Shown in pieces: positions 45,703-59,940 of a stretch of DNA of 64,000 nucleotides. The DNA is from Pyramidobacter porci (GTDB lineage Bacteria; Synergistota; Synergistia; Synergistales; Dethiosulfovibrionaceae). The stretch is taken from positions 62,001 to 126,000 of the forward strand of contig NZ_VUNH01000007.1 in the NCBI RefSeq assembly GCF_009695745.1, written 5' to 3'. Below the pieces are notes generated by a model. The model had not been told where the DNA came from. It saw only the letters and a list, made by a program, of their open reading frames with translations, and did no database searches. Positions within the stretch are counted from its first letter, which is position 1. Each line of letters begins with the position of its first letter. The position numbers were made by a program, and so were the translations under genes.

Positions 45703-46905
45703 TTACATGAAGCAATTGCCGATAAACACGCCCAGATAGTTACCGATAACATACCCGTAAAGGGCGCATAGAATGGCTGGCGCGATAATATTGCTCCAGC
45801 CCTGGCTGATCGCGAGCGACGCGGTCGTCGATGGCCCGCCGATATTCGCCGCGATAGAGCAGCAGATGTCTTCCAAATTGATGTTGAATATCTTCCCGAG
45901 AAGGAAAGATAGCACCAGGTGGCATGCCAGAGTGACCGCAAAGGCAAACAGCACGAAGAGGCCGTACTGCCCCAGCTTGTAGACGTTGGCTGCCGTTCCT
46001 ACCGTGACGAACCACAAAGACATGAGAATCAATCCGAATTCTTCGCCGAATTTCAGCGAGGAAAACCACTTCGGCATAAAAGTGGCTCCCAGAACAGACA
46101 GCGTGGTCATGACAAGCCAGATGCTGCCGAAAAGCTGCTTGATGACAAAAGGCGGTTTCATGGCAACAACCGCGTTGGCGATCAGGCGGCTCACGGCGAG
46201 AATGACAAACGCCGTCGTAAAGGTTTTGAGGACGTCGAGTAAAGAGATGCCTTTGTCTTTCCAGAACACGGCGGAGAACGGTTTCGTCGCCGCCTCCGGA
46301 TCGGCGAGGATTGCTGCCTCGCGTTCATCGATGTGAGGATGTTTAAACCAGCGTCTATAGGTGCGGGTGCCGGCCGTGAAAGATAATACGAACAGAACGA
46401 TGCCGAGAGTGAAGTTGGCGAGCATCGTCGTCGCGCTGATCAACTCCTCGCTGACTCCGAACGTCCCTCCCATGGCGATAATGTTGACTGTGCCGCCGAT
46501 GGCTCCCGCAGCATACATGGCCGTAAAGCCGGGGATCTCCTGCATCCCCCAGCTGCGGAGCACGGGGCCGTAGATAAAAGCTGCGGCGATGGAAGAGATG
46601 GCGGTGAGATTGAAAGCAATGAAAACTTTTCCGCTTTCCTCATAGATTTTGCGAAGATTGGATTTAAAAAGCAGCATAGGTATAGCAAGAGGCACCAGGA
46701 TTCCCGAGAATGATTTGTAAACGGGAGAAGAGAAGGGAAGAATATGCATGTTCGCTAAAATAACTCCCGCTATCACATAAAGAAATATGGTCCCCAGTTT
46801 GTTGATGCTCTTGAAACGTTGATCAAGCCAATTAACTCCGAGAACTACGCACAACAGCACTGCCCAGATATAAATCGTATCAGTAGGCTGGATTAAAGAT
46901 GTCAT
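45703..46905 (-). CDS. DUF819-family membrane protein (YjcL-like), probable permease
   Basis: About 400 residues and ten or more hydrophobic helices. Typical DUF819 sequence: VLVPLAIPMLLFKSNLRKI, AAGAIGGTVNIIAMG, SATTMLANFTLGIVL, AANIGGPSTTASLAISQGW. The related keratan-type sodium/solute permeases suggest transport, but no substrate is established. Start is ambiguous: ATG at 46905, or GTG/TTG at 46914/46917 nearer to AAAGG. GC is low for the window, and a long AT-rich stretch precedes it. Its neighbour, the amidohydrolase, may act on the same compound. Confidence 0.85.
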   Translation of the reverse strand: MTSLIQPTDTIYIWAVLLCVVLGVNWLDQRFKSINKLGTIFLYVIAGVILANMHILPFSSPVYKSFSGILVPLAIPMLLFKSNLRKIYEESGKVFIAFNLTAISSIAAAFIYGPVLRSWGMQEIPGFTAMYAAGAIGGTVNIIAMGGTFGVSEELISATTMLANFTLGIVLFVLSFTAGTRTYRRWFKHPHIDEREAAILADPEAATKPFSAVFWKDKGISLLDVLKTFTTAFVILAVSRLIANAVVAMKPPFVIKQLFGSIWLVMTTLSVLGATFMPKWFSSLKFGEEFGLILMSLWFVTVGTAANVYKLGQYGLFVLFAFAVTLACHLVLSFLLGKIFNINLEDICCSIAANIGGPSTTASLAISQGWSNIIAPAILCALYGYVIGNYLGVFIGNCFM

Positions 46906-47440
46906 GAGAATCACCAAACCTTTCTAGAAAAATCGGAATATCTCTTTATGAAAATGACGCTTCCGGCATCGCGCTAAAATTTGATGTGGCATCGCCCCCT
47001 GCTGTTCGCGATATAAGATTTAACAATATTATCCAATTCAATTAATATCGACTCAGCAGTTAAATTAATATTAAATATTTAAATTTAATCTATGTTAATA
47101 TACAATAAGCATACTAATATGTCAAGCATATATTCTCTGATGAAAAAAGTACAGCACGTCGAAAGCCGGCATAGGAGATTACGCCGTCCCCATAGACAGA
47201 GCCGTCCCAGCGACAAACGGACAATACCGATTTCCAATAGGATCGTTGACAAGGTTTGTTCAGTGCCCCGAGGGAGTTCATCCACTCACCTTTGAGCGTC
47301 CTTTACTTGCTGTATATACGGCCCGGCGGCAGAAGGAACGTCGATAAAAGGGAATGGGTAAAAGAGTAAATAACGATAACGAGCGATGCAGCGATGAGAG
47401 AGGCGTGAGAATCCCGGTCAGTCGGGCTCAAAACGCCGCA
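46906..47440. other. AT-rich intergenic region without a recognised gene
   Basis: 46980-47120 is unusually AT-rich for this chromosome, with overlapping palindromes such as AATTAATAT/ATATTTAAATTT. It should hold the DUF819 promoter. 47120-47440 has short open frames on both strands without ribosome sites or recognisable products. No DnaA boxes were recognised. Confidence 0.5.
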
Positions 47441-47451
47441 GCATGTGTAAA

Positions 47452-47497
47452 AATCAGCCCGCAGTCCCTCTTGGGGAACTGCGGGCTGATTTTTTAA
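47452..47497. terminator. Terminator of the dps-perR operon
   Basis: AAAAATCAGCCCGCAGT / ACTGCGGGCTGATTTTTT, a 17-bp stem with T runs on both strands, just downstream of the regulator stop. Confidence 0.9.
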
Positions 47498-47523
47498 TTC
47501 GTTCGTTTTGGGGTCGAAGCGTT

Positions 47524-47943
47524 TCATCCCTTGCCTGTTTGAGCCAAAGTGTTTTTTCTGCATTCGGCGCAGATGCCGCTGATCGTCAGCGAGACGCTCA
47601 TGGGCACGTCGCCTTTTTCCAGCGTGAACGCGCCGGCGGCCTCGCGGGCGTCGATCGGTTCAAGGTCCCTGACTTTGCCGCATTTGGTGCAGACGAAATG
47701 GGCGTGATCGCAGCAGATGCAGTCGTAACGTTCCGCGTTCTGCAGCGCGGGGACCCGTCGGATTCTCCCGTTTTCTTCGAGCAACTTGAGATTGCGGTAG
47801 ACGGTGCCGAGGCTGAGATTGGGCATTTTCGCCTTGAGCGCCGTGTAGATGGTCTCCGCCGAAGGATGCTCGCGAGTAGAGCGCAGATAATCGTAAATCA
47901 TGTCCCGTTGCTGCGAATGGCGTGTTTTTTTCTCCTCGGGCAT
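47524..47943 (-). CDS. Fur-family repressor, PerR-like
   Basis: A 139-residue metal-dependent repressor. Winged helix about 8-80 (QQRDMIYDYLRSTREHPSAE, LSLGTVYRNLKLLEENG), then the dimer domain with HAHFVCTKCGKVRD and GICAECRK, i.e. the two CxxC structural-zinc pairs. RYD and the H-rich segment CCDHAHF match peroxide-sensing PerR/Fur. It begins 15 bp after dps and is co-transcribed with it, which favours a PerR-type peroxide role. GAAGGGGACAGG precedes the ATG. Confidence 0.92.
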   Translation of the reverse strand: MPEEKKTRHSQQRDMIYDYLRSTREHPSAETIYTALKAKMPNLSLGTVYRNLKLLEENGRIRRVPALQNAERYDCICCDHAHFVCTKCGKVRDLEPIDAREAAGAFTLEKGDVPMSVSLTISGICAECRKNTLAQTGKG

Positions 47944-47958
47944 CCTGTCCCCTTCTTG

Positions 47959-48399
47959 TTACTTTGTCATCGATTCGACAAACCAGATCTTTTTGCCGAA
48001 CTCTTTGATGTGGTCTTCCATCATGTTCGCGGCGTCGAACGCGTCCTCGGCCTCGGCGGCCTTGCGGATGTCCGCGGCCTGGTCCCTGAGCAGCTTCATG
48101 TCGGCGAGGAGAATGCCGAGCGCGTCGCCGGTCGAGATCTCCTTGGACTCGATCTCCTTGACGCTGGCCAGTTCGAGATACTGCTTCAGGCTCGCCGCGG
48201 GCAGCTCGCCGTTCATGCGCAGCAGTTCCGCCGCTTCGTCGAGAATGTCCGCGTAGTCGTCGTAGACGGATTCGAGATACTCGTGGACGGCTTTGAACTG
48301 GGAGCCGACGATGTTCCAATGCAGATTGTGCATCTTGACGAAAGACACGCCGATGTTCGCGATGTAGCCGTTGATCTTGCTGACGAGATTCTTGTTCAT
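47959..48399 (-). CDS. dps: Dps-family ferritin-like protein
   Basis: A 146-residue mini-ferritin that oxidises Fe(II) with peroxide and stores iron in a 12-mer. The ferroxidase ligands appear in KMHNLHWNIVGSQFKAVHEYL (His) and YDDYADILDEAAELLR (Asp, Glu). Length and helical pattern fit. GGGAGGAA lies before the ATG. First gene of dps-perR; a Fur/PerR-like box covers its promoter. Confidence 0.94.
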   Translation of the reverse strand: MNKNLVSKINGYIANIGVSFVKMHNLHWNIVGSQFKAVHEYLESVYDDYADILDEAAELLRMNGELPAASLKQYLELASVKEIESKEISTGDALGILLADMKLLRDQAADIRKAAEAEDAFDAANMMEDHIKEFGKKIWFVESMTK

Positions 48400-48428
48400 G
48401 AAAAATTCCTCCCTGGATTTTTATGGTT

Positions 48429-48450
48429 CGAGACGAAAACGTCTCTTTTT
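48429..48450 (+). terminator. Hairpin with T run in the dps leader
   Basis: GAGACG-aaaa-CGTCTC followed by TTTTTTG on the plus strand. On the minus strand it forms a stable stem in the untranslated leader of dps, between promoter and ribosome site. It could block plus-strand transcription or protect the dps message. Confidence 0.4.
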
Positions 48451-48463
48451 TGAATCTGGTCGT

Positions 48464-48509
48464 ACTATAGCGGCGAATTTTTCATTTGTCAATAACAGGA
48501 ATCATTATC
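48464..48509 (-). promoter_or_regulatory. dps-perR promoter with overlapping Fur/PerR-like box
   Basis: Minus strand TTGACA (48492-48487), 17-bp spacer, TATAGT (48469-48464). Directly upstream is GATAATGATT (48509-48500) followed by TTATT, a partial match to Fur/PerR operators (TGATAATnATTATCA / TTATAATnATTATAA). Confidence 0.7.
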
Positions 48510-48669
48510 TTTTACGTTTTTTATTCCTTTCAGGGGCAGAGAGCACAAGAAAGGAAATCATGGTGAAGAACGCCCTTGCCATTCAATACTGCAGTATAAG
48601 TCGACCCGGCGGGGAAGGGGGCTGCGGAGGCAGATCTTTTACGCTCTGCGGAACCACAGTCGCAAAGGT

Positions 48670-48706
48670 TGAGGCGAGGCGAACCGCCAACGTTCGCCTC
48701 GCCTCA
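48670..48706 (-). terminator. Hairpin after the HAD hydrolase gene
   Basis: TGAGGCGAGGCGAAC / GTTCGCCTCGCCTCA, a 15-bp perfect stem, without a clear T run. Confidence 0.55.
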
Positions 48707-48711
48707 GCATT

Positions 48712-49386
48712 TCATATGGGATCGGAGCCGCGCTGTCCAGCGGCCGCTTTGCTCCAGTCGACGACGCACTCGTCGGCCAAAGCCCGCAGCGCCGGCCAGT
48801 CGGACGCGCTGGCGGCATCGTAGACGGCGACGGCGTAAAAGCCGGCGTTTTTCGCCGTCGTCAGCGCGGAAAGCGAATCCTCGAACACGGCCGTTTCCGC
48901 CGGAGCGGAACCGAGGCGGCGGGCCGCCTCGAAGTACACGTCGGGGCGGTTTTTGCTGGCGCCGACTTCTTCGCAGCTGAGCATGAAGCGGAATTCGCGG
49001 TCGACGCCGAGGCGGCGCAGGCATAATTTCACGAGCGGCACGCTGGTGGCCGAAGCGGTGCAAAGCGCCGCGCCGCGGCGGTTGAGCCGCCGCAGGTACT
49101 CCGCCGCGCCCGGCTTGAGCGAAACGTCGCGCTCGTAATGGCGGCGCATCACGCCGTTCATCTCGGCGACGACATGCTCGGGCGTGCCGGAAAATCCCAG
49201 CTCGGCGATAAAGGCCCGCGCCGCGTCGTACAGCGTCATCGGCTTGAGGCGGGCGATCAGGGCTTCGAGCTCCGGCCCGGACGGCGCGCCGCGCCCGGCC
49301 AGGTACTCGCGCTCCATGCGCTGCCAATAGCCCATGGAATCGACGAGCGTGCCGTCCATGTCGAAGATGGCGAACTTTTTATCCAT
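48712..49386 (-). CDS. HAD-superfamily hydrolase, phosphoglucomutase/phosphatase-like
   Basis: A 224-residue cytoplasmic HAD phosphatase. Motif I FDMDGTLVDSMGYW (nucleophile Asp and acid-base Asp), cap domain about 17-90, motif II LCTASATS, motif III lysine in GASKNRPDVY and motif IV VFEDSLSAL. These are features of the beta-phosphoglucomutase/phosphatase subfamily; the substrate is unclear. AGGGAG lies nine bases before the ATG at 49386. It follows the Nudix gene by 11 bp, so both form an operon of house-cleaning hydrolases. Confidence 0.9.
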   Translation of the reverse strand: MDKKFAIFDMDGTLVDSMGYWQRMEREYLAGRGAPSGPELEALIARLKPMTLYDAARAFIAELGFSGTPEHVVAEMNGVMRRHYERDVSLKPGAAEYLRRLNRRGAALCTASATSVPLVKLCLRRLGVDREFRFMLSCEEVGASKNRPDVYFEAARRLGSAPAETAVFEDSLSALTTAKNAGFYAVAVYDAASASDWPALRALADECVVDWSKAAAGQRGSDPI

Positions 49387-49397
49387 GATCTTTCTCC

Positions 49398-49871
49398 CTA
49401 CGCAAGCGGTTGCGGAACGCCGTCCAGCGCCCATTCGGCCAGGCGTTCGCCCTCGTATCGCAGCTTGAGCGAGAAAAACGGCGCGTCCTCTGCGAGCAGG
49501 CGCAAAAATATTCTGTCGCCTTCCCAGAGGTTAAGCGATTCGACCCGCTCTTTCGGCACCCACTCGAGCGCGCCTTCGTCGCAGTCGTGCGGTTTTCCCG
49601 TAAAGCCGGATACCGTGTAGAGGCACATGTACTCCGTGCCCCAGCGGTCGGACACAAACGTGACCAGACCGCGGAAGCGGAATTCCGTCGGCTCGTAGCC
49701 GGTCTCTTCGCGCACCTCGCGGCGCAGGCAGTCTTCCGGGCTCTCCCCCTCCTCCAGCTTGCCGCCGACGCCGATCCACTTGTCGCGGTTTTCGTCGTTC
49801 TCCTTGACGGTCCGGTGCAGCATCAGCCAGCGGCCGCCGCGTTCCATGTAGCAGAGCGTGGTGATCTTCAT
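49398..49871 (-). CDS. Nudix hydrolase, MutT-like 8-oxo-dGTP diphosphatase family
   Basis: A 157-residue pyrophosphohydrolase. The Nudix box is complete: GGKLEEGESPEDCLRREVRE then ETGY (Gx5Ex7REUxEExGU). CYMERGGRWLMLHRTVKEND at the N-terminus and WVPKERVESLNLWEGDRIFL after the box resemble the MutT/NudA type of Firmicutes that removes oxidised nucleotides. AAGGAG lies eight bases before the ATG at 49871. Likely operon with the HAD gene downstream. Confidence 0.92.
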   Translation of the reverse strand: MKITTLCYMERGGRWLMLHRTVKENDENRDKWIGVGGKLEEGESPEDCLRREVREETGYEPTEFRFRGLVTFVSDRWGTEYMCLYTVSGFTGKPHDCDEGALEWVPKERVESLNLWEGDRIFLRLLAEDAPFFSLKLRYEGERLAEWALDGVPQPLA

Positions 49872-49968
49872 GAGCCTAACTCCTTGTGCGTAACGGGATG
49901 GTCTCTTGAATAAAAGCCTCAAGAGATTCATAATGAAGCATCGGCGATCGATGAGGAGGGGATGTACG

Positions 49969-50346
49969 ATGCTTCATGCGCTGAAAACAAAGCGAGTGTA
50001 TCTTCCGGCGGAAGCGGACGACGGCTTCCGCGCGCTTGTGGACCGGCTGTGGCCGCGCGGTCTTTCCAAAGAAAAGGCCGCCCTCGATCTGTGGAACAAG
50101 GAGGTGGCCCCCAGCGCGGCGCTGCGGACGTGGTTCGCCCACGATCCGGCGCGCTTCGCCAAGTTCCGCGCCGACTATCTGACCGAGCTGGCGGGCAATT
50201 CTGCCGCGGCGGCATTCGCGGAACTCTGCCGCGAGCGCCTGAAGGAAGGGGACGTGACGCTGTTGTTCGGCGCCAAGGACACCAACCGCAACCAAGCGGT
50301 CGTGCTCAAAGAATGGCTGCTGTCGGAGCTCGGCGCAGACCGCTGA
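49969..50346 (+). CDS. DUF488 family protein
   Basis: A 125-residue protein of the DUF488/YeaO type: KRVYLPAEADDGFRALVDRL, WPRGLSKEKAALDLWNKEVA, PSAALRTWFAHDP and VTLLFGAKDTNRNQA. These motifs are typical (RVYD..G.RvLVDRLWPRG). Function unknown. GAGGAGGGG precedes the ATG at 49969. Divergent from the Nudix gene and followed by a parS site. Confidence 0.9.
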   Translation: MLHALKTKRVYLPAEADDGFRALVDRLWPRGLSKEKAALDLWNKEVAPSAALRTWFAHDPARFAKFRADYLTELAGNSAAAAFAELCRERLKEGDVTLLFGAKDTNRNQAVVLKEWLLSELGADR

Positions 50347-50421
50347 GCGTCGCCTTGACAGGCCGGTCCGACACACGGAGCGGAGTCCTCGGCGCGGGCC
50401 CGTTTTTTGAAAAAAAAAGCG

Positions 50422-50439
50422 ATGTTCCACGTGGAACAT
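50422..50439. other. parS-type centromere site 3
   Basis: Same 18-bp palindrome ATGTTCCACGTGGAACAT as at 32046 and 37136, in the intergenic space between the DUF488 gene and the autotransporter remnant. Confidence 0.9.
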
Positions 50440-50487
50440 TTCAACCTCGATACAGCTGCTAGACCGGTTCAATACGCTGAGCCGAAA

Positions 50488-51041
50488 TTACATATCCCAG
50501 CGCAGGGCGAACGAGCCGCTCAGACTGCGCTGATGCCGACCGATCCCGCCGCCGCGGCCGTCACGCCGGCGTTCTGCCAGTCGAGCCCGGCGTCGGCGAC
50601 GATCGTAAAGGTCCCGGCATGGCGCACGGCGTACAGCGACGCGCCCAGGCTGGAACTGTCGCTGTCGGTGCCGTTCAGCGCGCCGCGGCCGCGCATCTTC
50701 ATGCGCCCGGCGGCAAGAGCGATCCCGGCGTCCGTACCTCGCCCGAGGCGCCGGTCGAATCCGGCTGCAAGGCCGGAACCGCGCAGCGTGATGTCCGGCA
50801 TTCCCGGACGGCTGTCGAGGCGGCCGCCGTGAAACCACGCGCGCAGCCACGCGCCGCCGTTTCGCGAACGGTGGCGGACGCTCCACAGGCCCTCCGCGGC
50901 CGGAAACGCCGCGCTCCGTTTCCGCGTTCCGGCGTCCGCCTCCGGCAGGGCGGCCGCCGGCGGCGCCAAAAGCAGCGGCGCGAGAACGGCCGCCAGCAGA
51001 ACGCGCGCCAAACACGCCCCCGGTGAAGAACTTTTTTTCAT
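50488..51041 (-). pseudogene. Truncated autotransporter-type beta-barrel gene with a frameshift near its end
   Basis: Starts at 51041 after AGGAGGGG with a signal peptide (MKKSSSPGACLARVLLAAVL). Then come amphipathic strands typical of an autotransporter beta domain (GAWLRAWFHGGRLDSR, GSGLAAGFDRRLGRGTDAGI, SLGASLYAVRHAGTFTIVAD). The frame stops at 50520, but the adjacent frame continues to SLSGSFALRWDM and a stop at 50488, the kind of C-terminus outer-membrane barrels need. One extra base in the CCC at 50545-50547 restores it. Even restored, at 184 residues it has only about half of a 12-strand barrel and no passenger. TATAAT at 51073-51068 is its likely -10. Confidence 0.6.
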
Positions 51042-51095
51042 GGGAAAAGCCCCTCCTGTCGGGGCTGATTATAATACGGGAACGGACAAAATAAC

Positions 51096-51138
51096 AACGG
51101 CGGCGCCGGGCGCTTTTCGCGCTCCCGGCGCCGCCGTT
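51096..51138 (-). terminator. Terminator of the dehydratase-family operon
   Basis: AACGGCGGCGCCGGG / CCCGGCGCCGCCGTT, a perfect 15-bp stem with a 13-nt loop, 15 bp after the stop of the gene at 51153. T-rich on the minus side (TTGTTATTTTG). Confidence 0.85.
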
Positions 51139-51152
51139 TCGTTTTTTCGAAC

Positions 51153-52295
51153 CTAGAGCATTTCGATGAACGCGCCGATGCGCGTGGCCAGCTGCTCCTT
51201 GTCGTTCTCGGAGAAATCGGTCTCCACGGCCAGATAGCTCTTGCCGAGGCCGTGCACGAACTCGCGCACGCGGTACGTCTCGACGGCGTAGGTGTGGCAT
51301 GACGTCAGCGTCATGTCGAGCACGCCGTCGACGCGATAGAGGTCGGCCAAATAGCGGATCGCATCCAGTCTCGCCTCGTTGGGGCTCATGATCGAACAGC
51401 CGATGCCGAGGTACTTTTCGGCCAGCGCCTCGAGCGGATCCTTGTCTTCGTCGACGAGGTAGCGAAGCTCCTTTTCGCCGCCGCAGTTCTCGTAGCAGGC
51501 TGCCAGTCCGCCGGCCGCTTCCACGGCGTCGATCACCTTCGTGGCGCCGCTGATCGGGCAGCCGGTGATCATCACGCGCGGCTTCTTGCCCAGGCCGCGG
51601 TCTTCGCCCGCGGCGACGGCGGCGCGCAGGTCGGCGACCTGCTGCTTGAGCCAGGTGATGGAGGCTTCCTTGTCGAAGTGGAAGCTCATGTACTCGCCGA
51701 ACTCCCAGATCTCGTGCCCGGTCAGCGGCGGATTTTCCAGCTCGGCCAGCGACCACAGATCGCGCAAGGCCGTACGCTCGCGGTTGCGCAGACGAATCGC
51801 GGCGCGCAGGTCGCCGTCGGTGATCTCATGGCCGGTGAAGCGCTCCATCTCCTCCTTGAAGAGCGCGAATTCCTTTTTCATGATCTGCAGATCTTCGGGA
51901 CGGTCGCCGCGCTGCGGCAGCTGGATCGTGTAGACCGGCCTGATGTCGTTGAGCAGCTCGAACATCTTCTTCTTGCCGTCACAGGTCGTCTCGGCGACGA
52001 CCAGCCCGCAGAAGTGGAAATACGGGCAGGTATCGGTCATGGCGTGGCCGTAGCTGGCCTTGATCAGCGGGCAGAGGTTGCGCGGCAGGCGCTCCTCGGC
52101 GGCGGCGATCGGCTTCTGGCTGCGCGAACACAGCGAGGCCGACACGGCGCCGGCGGCGTGGATGATCTCCCACGGCACGAACGTGCAGTAGGTGCCGACG
52201 ATGGGCACGCCCTTTTCGCTCAGTTCCTTGATGAGCACCGGACCGTCCTTGGCGTGCTCCCTCATCCCCTCGACAATCTGTTCGATCGTTCTCAT
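51153..52295 (-). CDS. 2-hydroxyacyl-CoA dehydratase family protein, double-cubane cluster type (YjiM-like)
   Basis: A 380-residue protein of the HgdB/FldC/YjiM family. Cysteines likely to hold clusters: GTYCTFVPWEIIHAAGAV, SLCSRSQ, LCPLIKASYGHAMTDTCPYF, TTCDGKKKMFE, ITGCPISGAT, YENCGGEK, LGIGCSIM and TSCHTYAVE. A single dehydratase-type subunit next to one activator, with no CoA-transferase, is the pattern of double-cubane cluster proteins, ATP-driven low-potential reductases, rather than of 2-hydroxyglutaryl-CoA dehydratase with two subunits. Its ATG overlaps the activator stop by four bases. Confidence 0.88.
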   Translation of the reverse strand: MRTIEQIVEGMREHAKDGPVLIKELSEKGVPIVGTYCTFVPWEIIHAAGAVSASLCSRSQKPIAAAEERLPRNLCPLIKASYGHAMTDTCPYFHFCGLVVAETTCDGKKKMFELLNDIRPVYTIQLPQRGDRPEDLQIMKKEFALFKEEMERFTGHEITDGDLRAAIRLRNRERTALRDLWSLAELENPPLTGHEIWEFGEYMSFHFDKEASITWLKQQVADLRAAVAAGEDRGLGKKPRVMITGCPISGATKVIDAVEAAGGLAACYENCGGEKELRYLVDEDKDPLEALAEKYLGIGCSIMSPNEARLDAIRYLADLYRVDGVLDMTLTSCHTYAVETYRVREFVHGLGKSYLAVETDFSENDKEQLATRIGAFIEML

Positions 52296-53062
52296 ACGAT
52301 GGCCCCCCAGCCAATCAGCGCGGCGCCGAGCGCGCCGGCAAATTGAGATTTTTCGTGGACCTGCACGGGGCAGTCCAGCTCCTTTTCCAAAAACGCCCGC
52401 AGCGACGGGCTGCGCGACAAACCGCCGGAGAAGAACAGCGGCGGCTTCATCCCCACCCTGGCGAGCATCCCCGCCGAACGCGAGGCGATGCTCTTCAGCA
52501 GACCGCGCACGATGTTTTCGCGCGGCACGCCGCGGGCGAGGTTGCCGATCACTTCGCTCTCGGCGAAGACGGTGCACATGCTCGACAGCGGCTCGCTCGG
52601 GCCGTCGGCCGGAACGGCGCCGAACGCTTCGACGTCGTAATCCAGCGCGTGGCTGAGCACCTGAAAGAAGCGTCCCGTGCCGGCGGCGCACTTGTCGTTC
52701 ATGGCGAAATCCACCACGCCGCCCCGCTCGTCGAGCCGAATCACCTTGCTGTCCTGCCCGCCGATGTCGAGCACCGTGCGCGCCTGCGGACAGAGCTCGT
52801 GCGCGCCGCGGGCGTGGCAGGTGATCTCGGTGACCTGCTTCGTGGCAGCCGTCAGCGCGCGGCGCCCGTACCCCGTCGAGATCAGCGCGCCCAGATCGCT
52901 CTTGTCCAATCCGCGCCGCCGCAGCAGCTCCGCGATCATGGCCTCGCCCGCGTCGCGCGGGCTCCAGCCCGTCGGCGCGAGGCCCCACTCCAGCGCCTCG
53001 CCGCCGTAAAGGACTCCCTTGACGGCGGTGGAGCCGATGTCGATTCCCAGCACGAGCTTCAT
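52292..53062 (-). CDS. BadF/HgdC-type ATPase activator of the dehydratase-family protein (YjiL-like)
   Basis: A 256-residue ASKHA-fold ATPase that holds one 4Fe-4S cluster between two subunits and injects electrons with ATP hydrolysis. Seen: GIDIGSTAVKGVLY (phosphate 1), LDIGGQDSKVIRLDE (phosphate 2), the cluster cysteines in NDKCAAGTGRFFQ and MCTVFAESEV, and SGGLSRSPSLRAFLEK (adenosine). Length fits. GGGAGG lies six bases before the ATG at 53062. Overlaps the partner gene (ATGA). Confidence 0.93.
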   Translation of the reverse strand: MKLVLGIDIGSTAVKGVLYGGEALEWGLAPTGWSPRDAGEAMIAELLRRRGLDKSDLGALISTGYGRRALTAATKQVTEITCHARGAHELCPQARTVLDIGGQDSKVIRLDERGGVVDFAMNDKCAAGTGRFFQVLSHALDYDVEAFGAVPADGPSEPLSSMCTVFAESEVIGNLARGVPRENIVRGLLKSIASRSAGMLARVGMKPPLFFSGGLSRSPSLRAFLEKELDCPVQVHEKSQFAGALGAALIGWGAIV

Positions 53063-53087
53063 GATGGCCTCCCAAAATTTACAGTAT

Positions 53088-53123
53088 GCATAATGATTAT
53101 AACTTAACAACGATAATTTTCAA
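53088..53123 (-). promoter_or_regulatory. Promoter of the activator/dehydratase operon with Fur/PerR-like box
   Basis: Minus strand TTGAAA (53123-53118), 16-bp spacer, TATAAT (53101-53096). The perfect 5-1-5 palindrome ATAATgATTAT (53090-53100) lies over the -10; the surrounding 15 bp match the PerR consensus TTATAATnATTATAA at about 13 positions. Confidence 0.7.
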
Positions 53124-53267
53124 CGTCACAAATGAGCGAAAGTCACTGGATTTTTACGTTCGCGTCGGGCAGCTCTGCCGAATATTTTTCCCGGCGCGGG
53201 ACGGCCGGCACAATCCCGACGATCTCTCCGAAAAAAGCGGCGGTTCTCGTCCTGAAACCCCCTTGAT

Positions 53268-53277
53268 ATGCTATAAT
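53268..53277 (+). promoter_or_regulatory. Extended -10 promoter of the iron-type ABC operon
   Basis: ATGCTATAAT at 53268-53277, an extended -10 (TGnTATAAT). No convincing -35. Confidence 0.6.
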
Positions 53278-53346
53278 CGAGCCGTCCGCCGGAGCCGCCG
53301 CGTTCCGGCAATTCGTCGAGAAGAATCCCAAGGAGGAAACGTCGTC

Positions 53347-54324
53347 ATGAAAAAGTTCGTCGCCGCGCTTTCGCTCAGCCTGGCTTTCGCGGCCTGCGCC
53401 GCCGCCGAGCCTTCCGGCACGGTCATGCTCTATTCCTCGATGCAGGAAGACCAGCTGATCGCCATCAAACAGGGTTTCGAAAAGAAATATCCCGGCGTCA
53501 CCATGGAGTACTACTTCGCCGGCACCGGCAAGGTCATGACCAAGATCGCCACCGAAGCCCAGGCCGGTCGCGTCGACGCCGACATCATCTGGGTCGGCGA
53601 CCCGACCAACTACGTGTCGTTCAAGGCGCAGGGCATCCTGCAGCCGTACAGCTCGCCCGAAGCGGAGAAGATCGACAAGGCGTTCGTCGACGCCGAGGGC
53701 TATTACACCGGCGCGCGCATGATGAACATGGGCATCGCCTACAACACGCTCAACGTCGAAGCCGCCGACGCGCCCAAGACGTGGAACGACCTCTGCGACC
53801 CCAAATGGAACGACCAAGTCGTGATGACCGACCCCAACACCGCCGGCACCACCAAGTACTGGCGCAACGCGATCATGGCCAACGCCAAGTACGGCGCACC
53901 GTTCATGGAAAAGCTCAAGGCCAACAAGTGTTACTTCGAAAGCGGCACCACCGCCACGCACAATCAGGTCGCGGCCGGCGCCTACAAGCTCGGCGTGTGC
54001 CTCGACTACGTCACCGCCAACCTGATCAAGGAAGGCTCGCCGATCGCTTTCGTCTATCCCGAGGACACGGTTTCCATCTTCAGCCCCATCGGACTGGTCA
54101 AGGACTGCAAGAACGAGGCCAACGGCAAGCTGCTCTACGACTTCATCCTTTCCAAGGAAGGGCAGGAGATCCTCGTCGCCAACAATCTGCTCTCGGTGCG
54201 CGGCGACGTGGCGCAGAACGCCGACGTGGCCGCCATCGCCGCCAAGGCCATGGTCAGCGACATGGCCGAGGTGGTCGCCAAGCAGAAAGAGAACGCCGCC
54301 GCGTTCGACAAGATCTTCCGCTAA
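53347..54324 (+). CDS. Iron(III)-type ABC transporter substrate-binding protein (FutA/AfuA-like)
   Basis: A 325-residue binding protein: signal peptide about 1-21 (possible lipobox at FAAC), then GTVMLYSSMQEDQLIAIKQG, YYFAGTGKVMTKIATEAQAG, DIIWVGDPTNYVSFKAQG, AYNTLN, TWNDLCDPKWNDQVVMTDPN, PEDTVSIFSPIGLVKDCKN. This is the bacterial SBP type for Fe(III) and similar hard ligands (also 2-aminoethylphosphonate or thiamine in relatives). CAAGGAGG precedes the ATG. First gene of a four-gene importer operon. Confidence 0.9.
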   Translation: MKKFVAALSLSLAFAACAAAEPSGTVMLYSSMQEDQLIAIKQGFEKKYPGVTMEYYFAGTGKVMTKIATEAQAGRVDADIIWVGDPTNYVSFKAQGILQPYSSPEAEKIDKAFVDAEGYYTGARMMNMGIAYNTLNVEAADAPKTWNDLCDPKWNDQVVMTDPNTAGTTKYWRNAIMANAKYGAPFMEKLKANKCYFESGTTATHNQVAAGAYKLGVCLDYVTANLIKEGSPIAFVYPEDTVSIFSPIGLVKDCKNEANGKLLYDFILSKEGQEILVANNLLSVRGDVAQNADVAAIAAKAMVSDMAEVVAKQKENAAAFDKIFR

Positions 54325-54361
54325 CGCCGCTTCGTTCCAAACGAAAAAAGCGATTCGATTT

Positions 54362-54391
54362 ATGGGGGCAGCGCCAGTTGCCCCCATTTTT
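54362..54391 (+). terminator. Attenuating hairpin between binding-protein and ATPase genes
   Basis: ATGGGGGCA / TGCCCCCAT stem plus TTTTTG. Such partial terminators keep the binding protein in excess over the membrane parts. Confidence 0.8.
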
Positions 54392-54419
54392 GTACAACCT
54401 TTCAAGCAGGAGGAGTTTT

Positions 54420-55508
54420 ATGGGCAAAGTCATCTTCAAAAACGTCTCCTTCCGTTACGGCGAGCGCGACATCTTCAAGGACTTCAGCCTCGAAGTGGAG
54501 GACGGGCAGATCCTCTGTCTCGTCGGCCCCTCGGGCTGCGGCAAGACCACGCTGGCGCGCTGCCTTCTGGGGCTGAGCCGCCCGCGGACGGGAGAGATCT
54601 ACGTGGGGGACGAGTGCCTTTTCAGCGCCGAAAAGCGGATCAACGTTCCCGTGGAGCGGCGCAACATCGGCATCGTCTTTCAGGATTACGCCGTGTGGCC
54701 GCACATGACCGTGAAGGAAAACGTGCTCTACCCGCTCAGGAAACGCCGCGTCCCCAGAGACGAGGCGGAGAAACGGGCCATGCACGCCCTTTCTCAGGTC
54801 AACATGACGGAATACGCCGCCCACCTGCCCAGCCAGCTTTCGGGCGGCCAGCAGCAGCGCGTCGCCATCGCCCGCGCGCTGGTGTGCAACGGCGGCCTGA
54901 TCGTCATGGACGAGCCGATCACCAACCTCGACGCCAAGCTGCGCGAGCAGATGCTGCTCGAGATCCGCGAGATCCAGCGCAATCTGGGCACGACGATCCT
55001 CTACATCACCCACGACCAGCAGTCGGCGCTGCAGATCTGCGACAAGATGGCCGTCATGCAGCAGGACGGTTCGCTGTGCCAGGTCGGCACGGACGAGGAC
55101 ATCATCCTGCGCCCGGCCAACCGCTTCGCGTTCGAGTTCATCGGCGTGTCGAACTTCATCCCCGTCGTCGCGCTGGGCGGCGGCCTGGGGCTGGATACCG
55201 GCACAGGCGTCGCGCCGTGGGACGGGGAGCTTCCCGCTGGGTTCGATCCACGCCGCGGCGTCGATCTGGGGGTGCGTCCCAACGACGTCGTTTTCGACGC
55301 CGCCTCGCCGCTGCGCGCCCGCGTGGAACGGCGCACGTTCCTCGGCAGCGAGTACGACTACCGCGTCACGCTGGGCGCGCGCGAACTGCGCGTGCAGCAG
55401 AGCACGCTCGACGCGGCGCGGCAGGGCACGGCAGATGTTGGCGACGAGGTAGGGCTGCGTCTGCTCAATCCCCGCTACTACGAAGCGAAACAGGAGGTGT
55501 CGGCATGA
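54420..55508 (+). CDS. ABC transporter ATPase 1 of the iron-type importer
   Basis: A 362-residue nucleotide-binding subunit. Walker A GPSGCGKTTLARCLLG, Q loop IVFQDYAVWPHM, signature SGGQQQRVAIARAL, Walker B GLIVMDEPITNLD and switch THDQQSAL; a C-terminal TOBE-like regulatory part (about 240-362). AGGAG precedes the ATG. Its TGA overlaps the permease ATG (ATGA). Unlike most Walker B sequences of this family (LLLDEP), it has VMDEP. The operon carries a second, different ATPase after the permease. Confidence 0.93.
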   Translation: MGKVIFKNVSFRYGERDIFKDFSLEVEDGQILCLVGPSGCGKTTLARCLLGLSRPRTGEIYVGDECLFSAEKRINVPVERRNIGIVFQDYAVWPHMTVKENVLYPLRKRRVPRDEAEKRAMHALSQVNMTEYAAHLPSQLSGGQQQRVAIARALVCNGGLIVMDEPITNLDAKLREQMLLEIREIQRNLGTTILYITHDQQSALQICDKMAVMQQDGSLCQVGTDEDIILRPANRFAFEFIGVSNFIPVVALGGGLGLDTGTGVAPWDGELPAGFDPRRGVDLGVRPNDVVFDAASPLRARVERRTFLGSEYDYRVTLGARELRVQQSTLDAARQGTADVGDEVGLRLLNPRYYEAKQEVSA

Positions 55509-57226
55509 GACTCGGCCTGCGCAGAAACAAAGATCTGGCGGCACTCGACGGCCGCCGTTTCAACCTCGACGGCGCCATGACGCTGCTCAGCTTCGCGCTG
55601 CTGCTGGTGATCGTCGTCATTCCCATTTTCATGATCGTGTATCACGCCTTTTTCTACCAGGGGCGCTTCGATCCATCGCTGTTTGCAAGCCAGCTGCTTG
55701 CGCCCAAGACGCTTGGTTCGATGTGGAACACGGTCAAGATCGCCTTCTGGGTGACGCTGTTCGGCACGATCATGGGCGTCTTCTACGCCTGGCTGCTGGG
55801 GCGCAGCGACATCCCCGCCAAGGGGCTGATGCGCGCGCTGTTCAGCATTCCCTACATGTTCCCGCCGTTTTTGGGGGCCATGGCCTGGGACTTGCTGCTC
55901 AACGGGCGTTCGGGCTATCTGAACCGCTGGCTGGTACGCACGCTTGGCCTCGCCGGCGCGCCGTTCAACATCAACTCGGTATGGGGCATCGTCTTCGTGG
56001 AAATTTCCTACTATTTCCCGTTCGTCTTCATGCAGGTGGTCAGCGCGCTCGAGCGCATGGATCCGACGCTGGAGGAGTGCGCCCGCATCGCCGGCGCGCG
56101 GCAGATGACCGTGATCCGCAAGATCACGCTGCCGCTGGTGCTGCCGGCTATCTCCGCCGGCGCGCTGCTGATTCTGATCTCGTCGCTGGCGCACTTCGGC
56201 GTGCCGTCGATCCTCGGCTTTTCGCAGGGGATATTCACGCTGCCGACGCAGATCTTCGACACGATCCAGCGCGCCGAGGGCAGCTTCGAGGGCATCCGCC
56301 AGGGCGCGGCGCTGTCGATCCTGCTGGTGGCGGTCGTTTCCGTGGCTCTGATCGTGCAGAAAAAAGTGCTCAGCGCCGGCAGCTACGACATCATCAAGGG
56401 CAAGTCGATGCGCCCGACGCTGATCAAGCTGCGCGGCTCCAAGATCCCGCTGCTGATCCTCGCCGTCGCGACGCTGGTGATGATCGTCGTCGTGCCGCTG
56501 GTGATGATCTTCCTGGTCGGACTGGTCAAGGCCTACGGCCTGCCGCTGATCCCCAAGAACTTCACGCTCAACAACTACGTCAAGGTCTTCTCGGCCTCGG
56601 GAACCTTCGCTTCGATCAAGAACTCGCTGTTCGCCTCGTCCACGGCCGGCGTCGTCTGCATGTTCCTGGGCACGCTGATCGCCTACGTGGTGCAGAAGAT
56701 CCGCCCGCGCGGCCGCGGCGTCCTCGAGGTGCTCTCGGTGCTGCCGTATTCGATCCCCGGCACGGTACTGGCCGTCGGCGTCATTCTCGCCTGGTCGGGC
56801 AGCCTCGGCGGCGTCAGCCTCTACAATACGATCTGGATCATTCTCGTCGCCTATCTGGCGCGCTATCTGTCCTTCTCGATGAAGAGCTCGTCGGCGGCGC
56901 TGCTGCAGGTCCACCCCTCGCTCGAGGAAGCGGCGCGCGCGTGCGGCGCCTCGCACACCGAGAGCCTGAAAGACATCACGCTGCCGCTGATCCGCCCGGC
57001 GATGGTGGCCGGGTTCTTCCTGATCTTTCTGCCCGCCATGCGCGAAGTCACCACCTCGGTGCTGCTCTACGGGCCTTACACGCGCACGCTGGGCGTGCAG
57101 ATCTATTCGCTGCGCGACGCCGGCATGATGCCGCAGGCGGCCGCGCTCGGCTCGGTGGCGATCCTGCTGATCATCGTCTGCAACGCGGTCGTCACCTATT
57201 TCACCCGCGACCGGAAGGGGGTCTAG
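55505..57226 (+). CDS. Fused ABC permease (FbpB/AfuB/ThiP type, two transmembrane domains)
   Basis: A 573-residue inner-membrane protein containing two BPD_transp_1 domains in tandem, about 12 helices, so one chain forms the whole pore. Each half has its EAA loop: LEECARIAGARQMTVIRKIT and LEEAARACGASHTESLKDIT, the contact points for the ATPases. This fused layout is normal for Fe(III) and thiamine importers. It overlaps ATPase 1 by four bases and is followed after four bases by ATPase 2. The two EAA loops differ slightly, which could match two unlike ATPases. Confidence 0.93.
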   Translation: MRLGLRRNKDLAALDGRRFNLDGAMTLLSFALLLVIVVIPIFMIVYHAFFYQGRFDPSLFASQLLAPKTLGSMWNTVKIAFWVTLFGTIMGVFYAWLLGRSDIPAKGLMRALFSIPYMFPPFLGAMAWDLLLNGRSGYLNRWLVRTLGLAGAPFNINSVWGIVFVEISYYFPFVFMQVVSALERMDPTLEECARIAGARQMTVIRKITLPLVLPAISAGALLILISSLAHFGVPSILGFSQGIFTLPTQIFDTIQRAEGSFEGIRQGAALSILLVAVVSVALIVQKKVLSAGSYDIIKGKSMRPTLIKLRGSKIPLLILAVATLVMIVVVPLVMIFLVGLVKAYGLPLIPKNFTLNNYVKVFSASGTFASIKNSLFASSTAGVVCMFLGTLIAYVVQKIRPRGRGVLEVLSVLPYSIPGTVLAVGVILAWSGSLGGVSLYNTIWIILVAYLARYLSFSMKSSSAALLQVHPSLEEAARACGASHTESLKDITLPLIRPAMVAGFFLIFLPAMREVTTSVLLYGPYTRTLGVQIYSLRDAGMMPQAAALGSVAILLIIVCNAVVTYFTRDRKGV

Positions 57227-57230
57227 GGCC

Positions 57231-58337
57231 ATGGATCAGGTCGTACTGCGCGGCGTCACCAAACGCTTCGCCACAAAAACGCTCGGCGACATCGTCGCCG
57301 TGGACAACTTCACCTTCAGCGTCCGCGAGGGCGAGTGCTTTTCGTTCCTCGGTCCCTCCGGCTGCGGCAAGTCGACGACGCTGCGCATGATCGCCGGCTT
57401 CGAAGATCTCAGCGAGGGCGAGATCGAACTCTGCGGCCGCCCCGTCTCGGTGAAAAGCAAGAACCTTTACGTGCCGCCGGAAGAGCGCGGCCTCGGCATG
57501 GTCTTCCAGGCCTTCGCCGTCTGGCCGCACATGAACGTCTTCGAGAACGTCGCCTTCCCGCTGCGCATCCAGAAGATGAACCGCGCCGACGTTAACCGCA
57601 AGGTCGCCGACGCGCTGGCGCACACCAGCCTGACCGGCCTGGAAAACTCCTATCCGTCCGACCTCTCCGGCGGGCAGCAGCAGCGCATCGCCCTGGCCCG
57701 CGCCATCGTCACGCGCCCCAAGGTGATGCTGCTCGACGAGCCGCTCTCGAATCTCGACCCCAAACTGCGCGAGTCCATGCGCTTCGAGATCAAAGAGCTG
57801 CAGCGCACGTTCAACTTCACCATCATCTTCGTCACCCACGACCAGTCGGAAGCCATGGCCATCTCCGACCGCATGATGGTCTGCGACATGGGCAGGATCA
57901 TGCAGATCGACACGCCCGAGAACCTCTACAACAAGCCCGCCAACCGCTTCGTGCACAGCTTCCTCGGCGAGAGCACCTTCCTCAACGTCCTCGTCAGAGA
58001 CGGCCGAGCCTACGCCGAAGGCGATCCCGAGCACCCGCTCGACCTCTCCGTCCCCGCCGGCGCCGCCGAGCGCATGGTCGTCGCCGCGCGCCCCAACGCC
58101 ATCGAACTGAGCGGCGGCAGCGACGGCTACCAGACCCACGTGGAAAAGCGCATCTTCCTCACCGACCGCACCGAATACCTGGTCCCCGTCGGCAATCAGA
58201 TCCTGAAAGTGCAGACGCCGCACCGCGTCTCCTTCAGTCAGGGCGAAAAGTGCGCCGTCCGCCTTGCCGACCCCGTCTGGTACCCCGCCGACGACGAAGC
58301 GGCCGAAAAGGAGCGCCTGAGACGGCAGCTGGTATAA
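57231..58337 (+). CDS. ABC transporter ATPase 2 of the iron-type importer
   Basis: A 368-residue nucleotide-binding subunit. Walker A GPSGCGKSTTLRMIAG, Q loop MVFQAFAVWPHMNVF, signature SGGQQQRIALARAI, Walker B VMLLDEPLSNLDPKLR, switch THDQSEAM and a C-terminal TOBE-like region. All catalytic motifs are intact. It begins four bases after the permease, hence the same operon. With ATPase 1 it could form a mixed dimer, or each could form its own homodimer on the same permease. Confidence 0.93.
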   Translation: MDQVVLRGVTKRFATKTLGDIVAVDNFTFSVREGECFSFLGPSGCGKSTTLRMIAGFEDLSEGEIELCGRPVSVKSKNLYVPPEERGLGMVFQAFAVWPHMNVFENVAFPLRIQKMNRADVNRKVADALAHTSLTGLENSYPSDLSGGQQQRIALARAIVTRPKVMLLDEPLSNLDPKLRESMRFEIKELQRTFNFTIIFVTHDQSEAMAISDRMMVCDMGRIMQIDTPENLYNKPANRFVHSFLGESTFLNVLVRDGRAYAEGDPEHPLDLSVPAGAAERMVVAARPNAIELSGGSDGYQTHVEKRIFLTDRTEYLVPVGNQILKVQTPHRVSFSQGEKCAVRLADPVWYPADDEAAEKERLRRQLV

Positions 58338-58359
58338 CATCACGAACAGTATCGCATGA

Positions 58360-58402
58360 CAAGGAAGCCGCCTCGGCCTTTTCGGTCGAAGTGGCTTCCT
58401 TG
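58360..58402 (+). terminator. Terminator of the ABC operon
   Basis: CAAGGAAGCC / GGCTTCCTTG with inner TCG/CGA pairing; only a weak T run follows. Confidence 0.7.
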
Positions 58403-58500
58403 TGCTTTATGCTTCTTCTTTAAATAAAAGACCGAACTTCGCGGTGCTGCCAGGGAGATTCACAAAGCGAGCTGCTCAGACTGCGCAGCGTTTGAGATGG
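58403..58500 (+). repeat. Family B dispersed repeat, copy 5
   Basis: CTTCTTTAAATAAAAGACCG at the left and AGGGAGATTCACAAAGCGAG (58452-58471), identical to copy 3. It starts directly after the terminator of the ABC operon. Confidence 0.7.
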
Positions 58501-58595
58501 AATTCGTACTGCCCCAAAGATATTCTGCGCGCTACTCTGTTCACGGCGCTTTTTCAGCCTGTCGTGCGGCGGCGCGGAGGCCCAGTTTGGCATTG

Positions 58596-58660
58596 TTGCC
58601 GAACCGGCAAGACAGTGTTTCGAAATTTGATTTGATTAACAAATCATTTGCTTTTATAAT
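58596..58660 (+). promoter_or_regulatory. Promoter and operator-like palindromes of the CoA-transferase operon
   Basis: TTGATT (58632-58637), 17-bp spacer, TATAAT (58655-58660). GATTTG-attaa-CAAATC (58629-58645) is a perfect palindrome over the -35, and TTGCCG-aac-CGGCAA (58596-58610) lies upstream. Either could bind the LysR regulator encoded at 62235; the spaced-palindrome form is usual for LysR sites. Confidence 0.65.
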
Positions 58661-58716
58661 ACGAATACAGGCTCAACCGAAGCCTCGACAAAAACCACAA
58701 AGAGGAGGAAACACAA

Positions 58717-59940
58717 ATGGCACAGCACAGAGAGGGGATTCTTCAGGGAGTTCGCGTCATCGACTTTACGGATTTCCTGGCCGGTCCTTATATCGGCATG
58801 TACTTCGCGGATATGGGCGCAGACGTCATCAAATTCGAAAATCTGAAAAGCCACGGCAACTTCGTCCGCAACGCGAGACCTCTTGAGCCGAAAACCGGTC
58901 TGAGCATGTACTTTCAGAACCTCAACCGCAACAAGCGCGGCGTGGCTCTCGATCTCAAGCAGGAGGAGGGCAAGAAGCTCTTTGCCGAGCTGGTCAAATC
59001 CGCCGACGTCCTCATCGAGAATAACCGTCCCGGCGTGATGAAGCGTCTCGGCTTCGGCTGGGAAGAGTGCAAAGTTCTGAATCCCCGCCTCATTTACGCT
59101 TCAATCTCCGGCTTCGGCCAGACCGGCCCCAATTCCTACAAACCCGGCTACGATCTGATCGCCCAGGCGATGGGCGGCAGCATGAGCATCACCGGCTGGC
59201 CCGGCATGGAACCCACCCGCGCCGGCATGGCCATCGGCGACCTGTTCGCCGGATTGAACGTCGGCGTCGCCGTTTGCGCCTCGCTCTACGAGCGCGAAAA
59301 GACCGGCCTGGGCAACCACATCGACGTTGCCCTCGTCGACTCCATCGTCTCCGGCATGGAAGCCAAGCTGATGCAGTACGTCTACACCGGCGAGTCGCCC
59401 GTGATGACCGGCAACAAGTACATCTCCAGCGCGCCCTACGACTCGTTCAAGGCGAAGGACGCCTGGTTCGTCATCGCCTCCGGCACCGACAAGCATTTCG
59501 AAGTACTTTCCGCCGCCATGGGCATGCCCGAGTTGGCTCAGGATCCGCTGTACTGCGACACCGAGCTTCGCAAGAAGAACGCCGACGCGCTCAAGGCGGT
59601 CATCGAGAACTGGGCCGCCGACAAGACCGTCGCCGAAGCCGTCGCTATCATCGACAAGGCCGGCATCCCCGCCGCCCCGATTTACGACTGCGAAGCGCTC
59701 TGCAAAGACGACAGCATCATCAAGGACCGCGAGATGCTCGTCACGGTGCCTTCACCCAAGAACCACAAGGAAGTCGCCGAGCTGACTGTCATCGGCAATC
59801 CGATCAAGATGTCCGAAACGCCGGTGAAGTACAAAAAAGCCGCCCCCGACCTCGGCGAAGACAACGACGAGATCTTCAAGGAGCTTGGCTTCAGCGACGA
59901 GCAGCTGGCCGCCTTCAAGGCCGCAGGGCTCATGAACTAA
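58717..59940 (+). CDS. CaiB/BaiF-family (class III) CoA-transferase
   Basis: A 407-residue CoA-transferase that moves CoA between carboxylic acids through an aspartyl-CoA intermediate. Signature: GVRVIDFTDFLAGPYIGMYF, ADMGADVIKFENLKSHGNFV, NRNKRGVALDLK, GFGQTGP and the catalytic Asp in AIGDLFAGLN (about residue 171). AGGAGG precedes the ATG by eight bases. It starts a run with an HMG-CoA-lyase-like enzyme and a dicarboxylate-type permease, suggesting that it activates an imported acid with CoA from succinyl- or acetyl-CoA (inference). Confidence 0.94.
   Translation: MAQHREGILQGVRVIDFTDFLAGPYIGMYFADMGADVIKFENLKSHGNFVRNARPLEPKTGLSMYFQNLNRNKRGVALDLKQEEGKKLFAELVKSADVLIENNRPGVMKRLGFGWEECKVLNPRLIYASISGFGQTGPNSYKPGYDLIAQAMGGSMSITGWPGMEPTRAGMAIGDLFAGLNVGVAVCASLYEREKTGLGNHIDVALVDSIVSGMEAKLMQYVYTGESPVMTGNKYISSAPYDSFKAKDAWFVIASGTDKHFEVLSAAMGMPELAQDPLYCDTELRKKNADALKAVIENWAADKTVAEAVAIIDKAGIPAAPIYDCEALCKDDSIIKDREMLVTVPSPKNHKEVAELTVIGNPIKMSETPVKYKKAAPDLGEDNDEIFKELGFSDEQLAAFKAAGLMN

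Follow-up and report, generated by a model that had tools for sequence, protein, structure and literature searches.

Introduction

The PerR box of low-GC bacteria reads TTATAATNATTATAA and the Fur box GATAATGATAATCATTATC, and ferric-binding proteins hold iron through two adjacent tyrosine ligands. A double-cubane-cluster-containing anaerobic reductase (DCCP) has been solved as PDB entry 6eno, presumably from Carboxydothermus hydrogenoformans. Among the matches listed from the open-access literature, no report deals with the regulation of a DCCP or places a DCCP or a dehydratase activase under Fur or PerR, and the physiological relevance of DCCPs is described as unclear (PMC11971306). By a published residue rule, PerR has an Asp at the position of a Glu in Fur (PMC4866751). 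The rbr1-perR (rubrerythrin-perR) locus of Clostridioides difficile is under PerR control (PMC8546684), and AfuABC, misannotated as an iron importer, was shown to take up sugar phosphates (PMC4546632).

Here, we compare with these systems a locus of Pyramidobacter porci (Synergistota) in which an activase/DCCP operon diverges from an ABC importer. The whole stretch of DNA that was analyzed, 64 kb of a 2.5-Mb genome (G000; contig 7, 62001-126000), is called the window, and its own numbering is used for the features below.

Results

A palindrome over the -10 of the reductase operon

The operon and its promoter comprise four features:

53096-53123, minus strand: sigma-70-type promoter of the activase/DCCP operon, with -35 TTGAAA (53123-53118), a 16-bp spacer and -10 TATAAT (53101-53096)
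53090-53100, no strand: palindrome ATAATGATTAT (ATAATgATTAT, 5-1-5); the 15-mer at 53088-53102 matches the PerR box at 12/14
52292-53062, minus strand: activase (BadF/BcrAD ATPase, CoA_E_activ), the ATP-dependent partner of the reductase; TIGR00241 4.5e-71, above cut-off, and PF01869 1.4e-56
51153-52295, minus strand: double-cubane-cluster-containing anaerobic reductase (DCCP); NF040772, and PDB 6eno with E 1.8e-66

The activase and reductase genes overlap by 4 bp. The reductase lies above the cut-off of the NCBIfam double_cubane equivalog (473.2 versus 350 bits) and shares 95% identity with the reductase of Pyramidobacter sp. C12-8. The -10 that ATAATGATTAT overlaps belongs to a consensus-like promoter on the minus strand, and the activase start codon follows 27 bp past the end of the palindrome. 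ATAATNATTAT occurs once in the 64-kb window and in 0 of 100 dinucleotide shuffles, and when 63,986 window positions were scanned with the PerR box, the reductase site came out on top at 12/14; its Fur score is 13/19. An earlier note had claimed a Fur/PerR-like palindrome over this -10, and the sequence at 53090-53100 bears this out. The PerR match is supplied mostly by the -10 hexamer, and the outer two positions of the halves of the box are unpaired. A search with Rfam over 46900-59000 gave ten sub-threshold matches and none at gathering score.

We lean towards reading this site as a sigma-70 promoter in which the palindrome arises from the -10 together with the discriminator: the bases after the TATAAT hexamer are AT-rich and would complete the short palindrome by coincidence. 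From the -35 to the ribosome-binding site, the promoter is kept in Pyramidobacter. No feature of the sequence calls for Fur-family binding at the palindrome, the divergent importer is served by its own promoter, and we infer that no regulator acts here. The palindrome might instead be the operator of a PerR-type repressor (PerR1 or PerR2, described below), a serious possibility that we nonetheless place short of probable. The metal-loaded repressor would cover the -10 and block RNA polymerase, and peroxide or metal loss would free the promoter so that the reductase is made. The rank of the 12/14 match as the window's best speaks for such an operator; the unpaired outer positions speak against it.

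Promoter background and further copies of the palindrome

Because the -10 hexamer gives much of the PerR match, a background based on TATAAT is needed. We took TATAAT, one base and five A/T, written TATAATN+5(A/T), as the closer background, in which not every TATAAT is a promoter. The genome of P. porci has 55 such sites, all listed, and the five-mer ATTAT completes three of them, with 1.7 (uniform) or 1.9 (column composition) expected (P 0.25 and 0.30). The relative G009 has ATTAT in 3/49 (P 0.20 and 0.36); G011, with 70 sites incompletely listed, was left out of this test. Among AT-rich TATAAT sites, the reductase promoter is unexceptional and there is no clear excess, which weighs against a PerR operator. 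Among strong promoters it stands out, at roughly 1 in 15 to 1 in 30. The genome has 43 promoters of the form TTGA-N18-20-TATAAT (22 + 21, versus 0 + 2 in the control), for which base frequencies predict ~0.06 completions to ATTAT, with the composition taken from the flanks of the 29 strong promoters other than that of the reductase. Among 30 strong promoters, the reductase promoter has the top Fur score (13/19) and the top PerR score, the latter tied with one other, in favor of a PerR-type repressor.

Whole-genome counts depend on the control. Exact ATAATNATTAT occurs three times in the P. porci genome versus 0 in the reversed control, which ignores -10 hexamers, and PerR 15-mers with <=3 mismatches number 75 versus 67. 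With <=2 mismatches the counts are 12 versus 8 in G009 and 9 versus 13 in G011. In these GC-rich genomes, most exact ATAAT-N-ATTAT sites outside repeated genes are a -10 hexamer followed by an AT-rich discriminator, and shuffled-sequence controls therefore overstate such boxes.

All three exact sites of P. porci read TATAATNATTAT, and all three are present in G009 and G011 as well. The second lies before a TusA/YedF-type gene beside selA, and the third before an amino-acid-type ABC transporter, on whose divergent side lies an ABC ATPase gene taken by eye for sufC; a fourth exact site, in G010 and G011, precedes an ATPase-like frame (also read by eye). The element further precedes PstS-like binding-protein genes (PBP_like_2) in G008, G012 and G013 (three genomes, two genera), a TusA/YedF-type gene in G013 and an ABC permease in G008. 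It lies upstream of TusA/YedF-type genes in four Pyramidobacter lineages and is often joined to an extended -10 (TGN). A single exact site is present in each of G003, G005 and G007 (control 0, 1 and 2, respectively), and that of G007 falls inside a reading frame. An iron or peroxide theme is not obvious in the named genes behind the element, although their surroundings touch on sulfur, selenium and perhaps Fe-S assembly. The absence of an evident peroxide or iron theme disfavors a PerR operator, as does the position of the other two exact P. porci sites away from known PerR targets.

A regulator outside the Fur family might recognize TATAATNATTAT over the -10 of a few transport, sulfur/selenium and reductase operons, and the recurrence before PstS-like genes (three genomes, two genera) and TusA/YedF-type genes (four Pyramidobacter lineages), often with TGN, would suit it. 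We regard this as improbable, since no candidate protein was found, the counts show no clear excess over expectation, and an AT-rich discriminator after an extended -10 suffices as an explanation.

Two further observations concern promoter similarity. The PstS-like genes of G008, G012 and G013 (L165, L151 and L159) have TGATATAATNATTATG in common, in which the same palindrome is joined to an extended -10, and the G008 ABC permease promoter (L162:1501, TATAATGATTATGCTGTAAATTT) is like the reductase promoter (TATAATCATTATGCATACTGTAAATTT) even outside the palindrome.

G008 belongs to genus g3 (we take g2 and g3 to be perhaps Dethiosulfovibrio and Jonquetella) and has 12 exact ATAATNATTAT versus 0 in the control. 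We rejected this excess as evidence: 10/12 fall in copies of one gene, whose L170 copy has transposase domains (HTH_Tnp_1). This multi-copy transposase-like gene (L146, L161, L163, L164 and L166-L170) has ATAATAATTAT in the coding sequence of ten copies, and its repetition inflates the G008 motif counts.

Conservation in relatives and DCCP operons elsewhere

The palindrome is unchanged in the three Pyramidobacter lineages with the operon (G000, G009 and G010), as a PerR operator would predict, and also in G011, whose reductase promoter reads as in G010. From about -45 to the start codon, the promoter is nearly identical in G000, G009 and G010, and the remaining intergenic DNA has diverged. Spacer and leader are conserved too, and so, in these genomes, are the dps and perR2 promoters; in the feoAB promoter, conservation is lost after the -10. 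G012 and G013 (82-83% complete) gave no activase match. The operon of G008 has another promoter, which contains the top Fur-like site (13/19) of that locus, and the locus-wide best Fur-like 19-mer lies within the DCCP operon promoter in L097, L098 and L099 (genus g1) and L101 (genus g3). A site comparable to the palindrome is absent from the six genus-g2 promoters of the operon, which counts against a PerR operator.

We surveyed 79 DCCP loci from the genome collection and scored 76 operon promoters (three dropped; starts set by script). There is no Fur- or PerR-like excess: two (Fur) and five (PerR) of the 76 beat their shuffles at P<=0.05, with ~4 expected, and without Pyramidobacter's own L018 the numbers are 1 and 4 of 75. 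A general Fur/PerR box at DCCP operons is thus rejected. A whole importer near the DCCP operon is Pyramidobacter's alone among the 79 loci, and distant permease matches (22-28%) occur in three; we did not retain a general link between DCCP operons and the importer. In Treponema putidum (L065:9828-11740), a binding protein with 27% identity to that of the importer is encoded divergently from a second activase, with dehydratase-type genes adjoining.

Fur-family regulators and their promoters

Two Fur-family genes were found in the genome, PerR1 in the window and PerR2 upstream of rubrerythrin (contig 10), and one Fe_dep_repr_C match represents the DtxR type. The PerR1 region contains:

47524-47943, minus strand: PerR1, Fur-family regulator, PerR-like by residues; PF01475 89.8 bits (cut-off 23.1), nearest PDB chain 2fe3 (1.4e-21)
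47959-48399, minus strand: dps-like mini-ferritin; PF00210 9.6e-17, with Dps-type chains in the PDB
48491-48509, plus strand: Fur-like 19-mer AATAACAGGAATCATTATC, 14/19, the best of 63,982 window positions, which includes the half-box GATAATGATT

The nearest chain of PerR1, 2fe3, is titled Peroxide operon regulator. PerR1 falls below the curated NCBIfam PerR cut-off (best 100.5 versus 180 bits) and is for this reason called PerR-like, not PerR; PerR2 also misses the curated cut-offs, and its nearest PDB chains are PerR. Aligned with 2fe3, PerR1 has H26, D74, H80, H82 and D93 as the equivalents of His37, Asp85, His91, His93 and Asp104, and two CxxC motifs (C85, C88, C125 and C128). In both proteins, all five regulatory-metal residues of Bacillus subtilis PerR and its four cysteines are retained, and Asp stands at the position where Fur has Glu. 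By the residue rule cited above (PMC4866751), these features favor a PerR-type repressor at the palindrome. In G010 and G011 (L112 and L113), one TGA is flagged in the PerR1 match, which covers residues 1-133 of 139.

The dps gene is followed, 15 bp on and in the same direction, by that of PerR1. GATAATGATT lies at 48500-48509 on the minus strand, by the dps-perR promoter. At its upstream edge, the dps -35 overlaps AATAACAGGAATCATTATC by two bases; this 19-mer is kept except for one base across G000, L111 (G009) and L112 (G010). The best PerR-box score in the dps promoter is 8/14, so a second copy of the reductase box is absent. The two boxes have nine bases in common (ATAATGATT) and differ in extent and promoter position. 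The earlier note's similar half-box at dps-perR therefore stands as a Fur-like sequence, though neither as the same motif nor in the same place (14/19 Fur at the -35 versus 12/14 PerR over the -10). Likewise, the 47524 gene that it nominated as regulator is indeed PerR-like and in an operon with dps, although perR2 means that it is not the single candidate.

The perR2 promoter reads TTGACA-N17-TAGAAT-A-ATTCTA. Its -10 is covered by a palindrome whose register is that of the reductase promoter, a parallel that favors a PerR operator in the latter. This palindrome is near-identical in three Pyramidobacter lineages, with one base different in G009. Judged by register, PerR2 would be at least as good a candidate as PerR1 for the reductase promoter. 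The perR2-rubrerythrin operon itself (L002:766-1797, G000 contig 10) has TTAGAATAATTCTAG over its -10, a better PerR-box candidate than the reductase site.

Sites within one mismatch of the perR2 palindrome TWAKAATNATTMTWA number 5 versus 1 in the control for P. porci, 6 versus 0 for G009 and 6 versus 5 for G011. Those that recur, besides the one in the perR2 promoter, lie before ketopantoate reductase (also in G009), in an intergenic stretch at contig 7:296 (also in G009 and G011) and, in one further case, inside a gene. We did not retain a PerR2 regulon read from TWAKAATNATTMTWA; the reductase operon is absent among the five P. porci sites. Nor did we retain feoAB as part of a Fur regulon: relatives keep its 14/19 site, 185 bp upstream, only in part, and the nearer, conserved promoter has no box. 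In the stretch examined at a second feoB region, all Fur scores are <=11.

The divergent importer

On the other side of the palindrome lie:

53272-53277, plus strand: -10 of the importer (TGCTATAAT, TATAAT), a separate promoter read by eye
53347-54324, plus strand: solute-binding protein of the AfuA/P5PA/PhnS2-like group; NCBIfam matches all under cut-off
54420-55508, plus strand: ABC ATPase 1, start set by eye
55505-57226, plus strand: fused double permease, start set by eye
57231-58337, plus strand: ABC ATPase 2

The operon contains two ATPases and one fused permease, and its promoter lies ~170 bp from the palindrome. No Fur- or PerR-like box is present in the importer promoter region, 53200-53346 (best Fur 8/19, best PerR 7/14). 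A terminator-like hairpin (window 54362-54387) lies between the binding-protein gene and ATPase 1 and perhaps keeps expression of the genes behind it below that of the binding protein.

The nearest solved chains to the binding protein are 8x1a (7.7e-20), known here by its title, iron(III) binding protein, P5PA (6wce, 1.1e-19) and AfuA (4r72, 1.9e-19). Weaker matches include 6fjl/6hhb (Fe3+ titles, 4e-18) and the 7f6-series (iron titles, 1e-13); HitA (2.3e-9) and FbpA-type chains (9e-9) are far weaker. Iron titles are borne by many of the 39 matches. The sugar-contact His of AfuA is not kept in either alignment (8x1a or 4r72), and its sugar-contact Asp is aligned against 8x1a, not against 4r72 itself. 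The stretch VCLDYVTAN, a candidate counterpart of the adjacent tyrosine ligands, has one Tyr. Iron as the substrate is, on these alignments, not secure. What the earlier note called a divergent Fe(III)-type importer is thus a divergent importer whose iron label is insecure, with P5PA and AfuA among the nearest chains beside the many iron titles.

That note had further proposed that one regulator at 47524 joins iron import, iron storage and the reductase. The position of its gene beside dps, whose promoter has the 14/19 Fur-like site, and the iron titles of several binding-protein matches would fit. We consider the proposal very improbable. The importer promoter has no box (8/19 Fur, 7/14 PerR), the importer's nearest characterized relatives include sugar-phosphate and pyridoxal-phosphate binders, and a palindrome is missing from the -10 of the feoAB promoter (TTGTAA-N16-17-TATAAT), which is conserved. 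With a boxless importer promoter and two boxes that are not one motif, the link between import, storage and reductase was not borne out.

Discussion

A sigma-70 promoter with an AT-rich discriminator is the most economical reading of the reductase site, and a PerR-type operator is a respectable minority reading; we weighted them in this way because the importer lacks a box and because of the -10 control. The promoter reading is favored because 3/55 and 3/49 are no clear excess over expectation, because no iron or peroxide theme is evident in the genes that the element precedes, and because DCCP promoters show no excess and the six genus-g2 promoters no comparable site. Against it stand the top PerR match in the window; the top Fur and joint top PerR scores among 30 strong promoters; the 0.06 ATTAT completions expected among 43 strong promoters; the conservation of the spacer, which is usually free to vary; the perR2 palindrome in the same register; the three exact ATAATNATTAT versus 0; and the four loci with their best Fur 19-mer in the operon promoter.

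We put forward only tentatively, and with some doubt, that a PerR-type repressor controls the Pyramidobacter double-cubane reductase operon, so that peroxide or metal loss would turn on an ATP-driven low-potential reductase. If such a repressor binds, the site hints at a condition that calls for the double-cubane reductase, whose natural role is unclear. If none does, it is a caution for motif calls in these GC-rich genomes.

The locus resembles the described systems to different degrees. AfuABC (4r72-75) and P5PA (6wce) are among the three closest solved chains to the importer binding protein; AfuA has a sugar-contact His-Asp pair, whereas the binding protein is without the His and its Asp depends on the alignment. 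With regard to the Fur box, the dps site matches at 14/19 and the reductase site at 13/19, and both Fur-family genes found encode the Asp typical of PerR in place of the Glu of Fur. Like PerR boxes and the C. difficile rbr1-perR locus, the reductase site is an AT-rich palindrome over a promoter, and a perR-type gene lies beside rubrerythrin in this genome as well. This candidate site differs from PerR boxes in its unpaired outer two half positions and in having as its target a reductase, not a gene of peroxide defence. The likeness to the DCCP of PDB 6eno extends over residues 24-380 of the window reductase (E 1.8e-66), with an activase gene adjoining.
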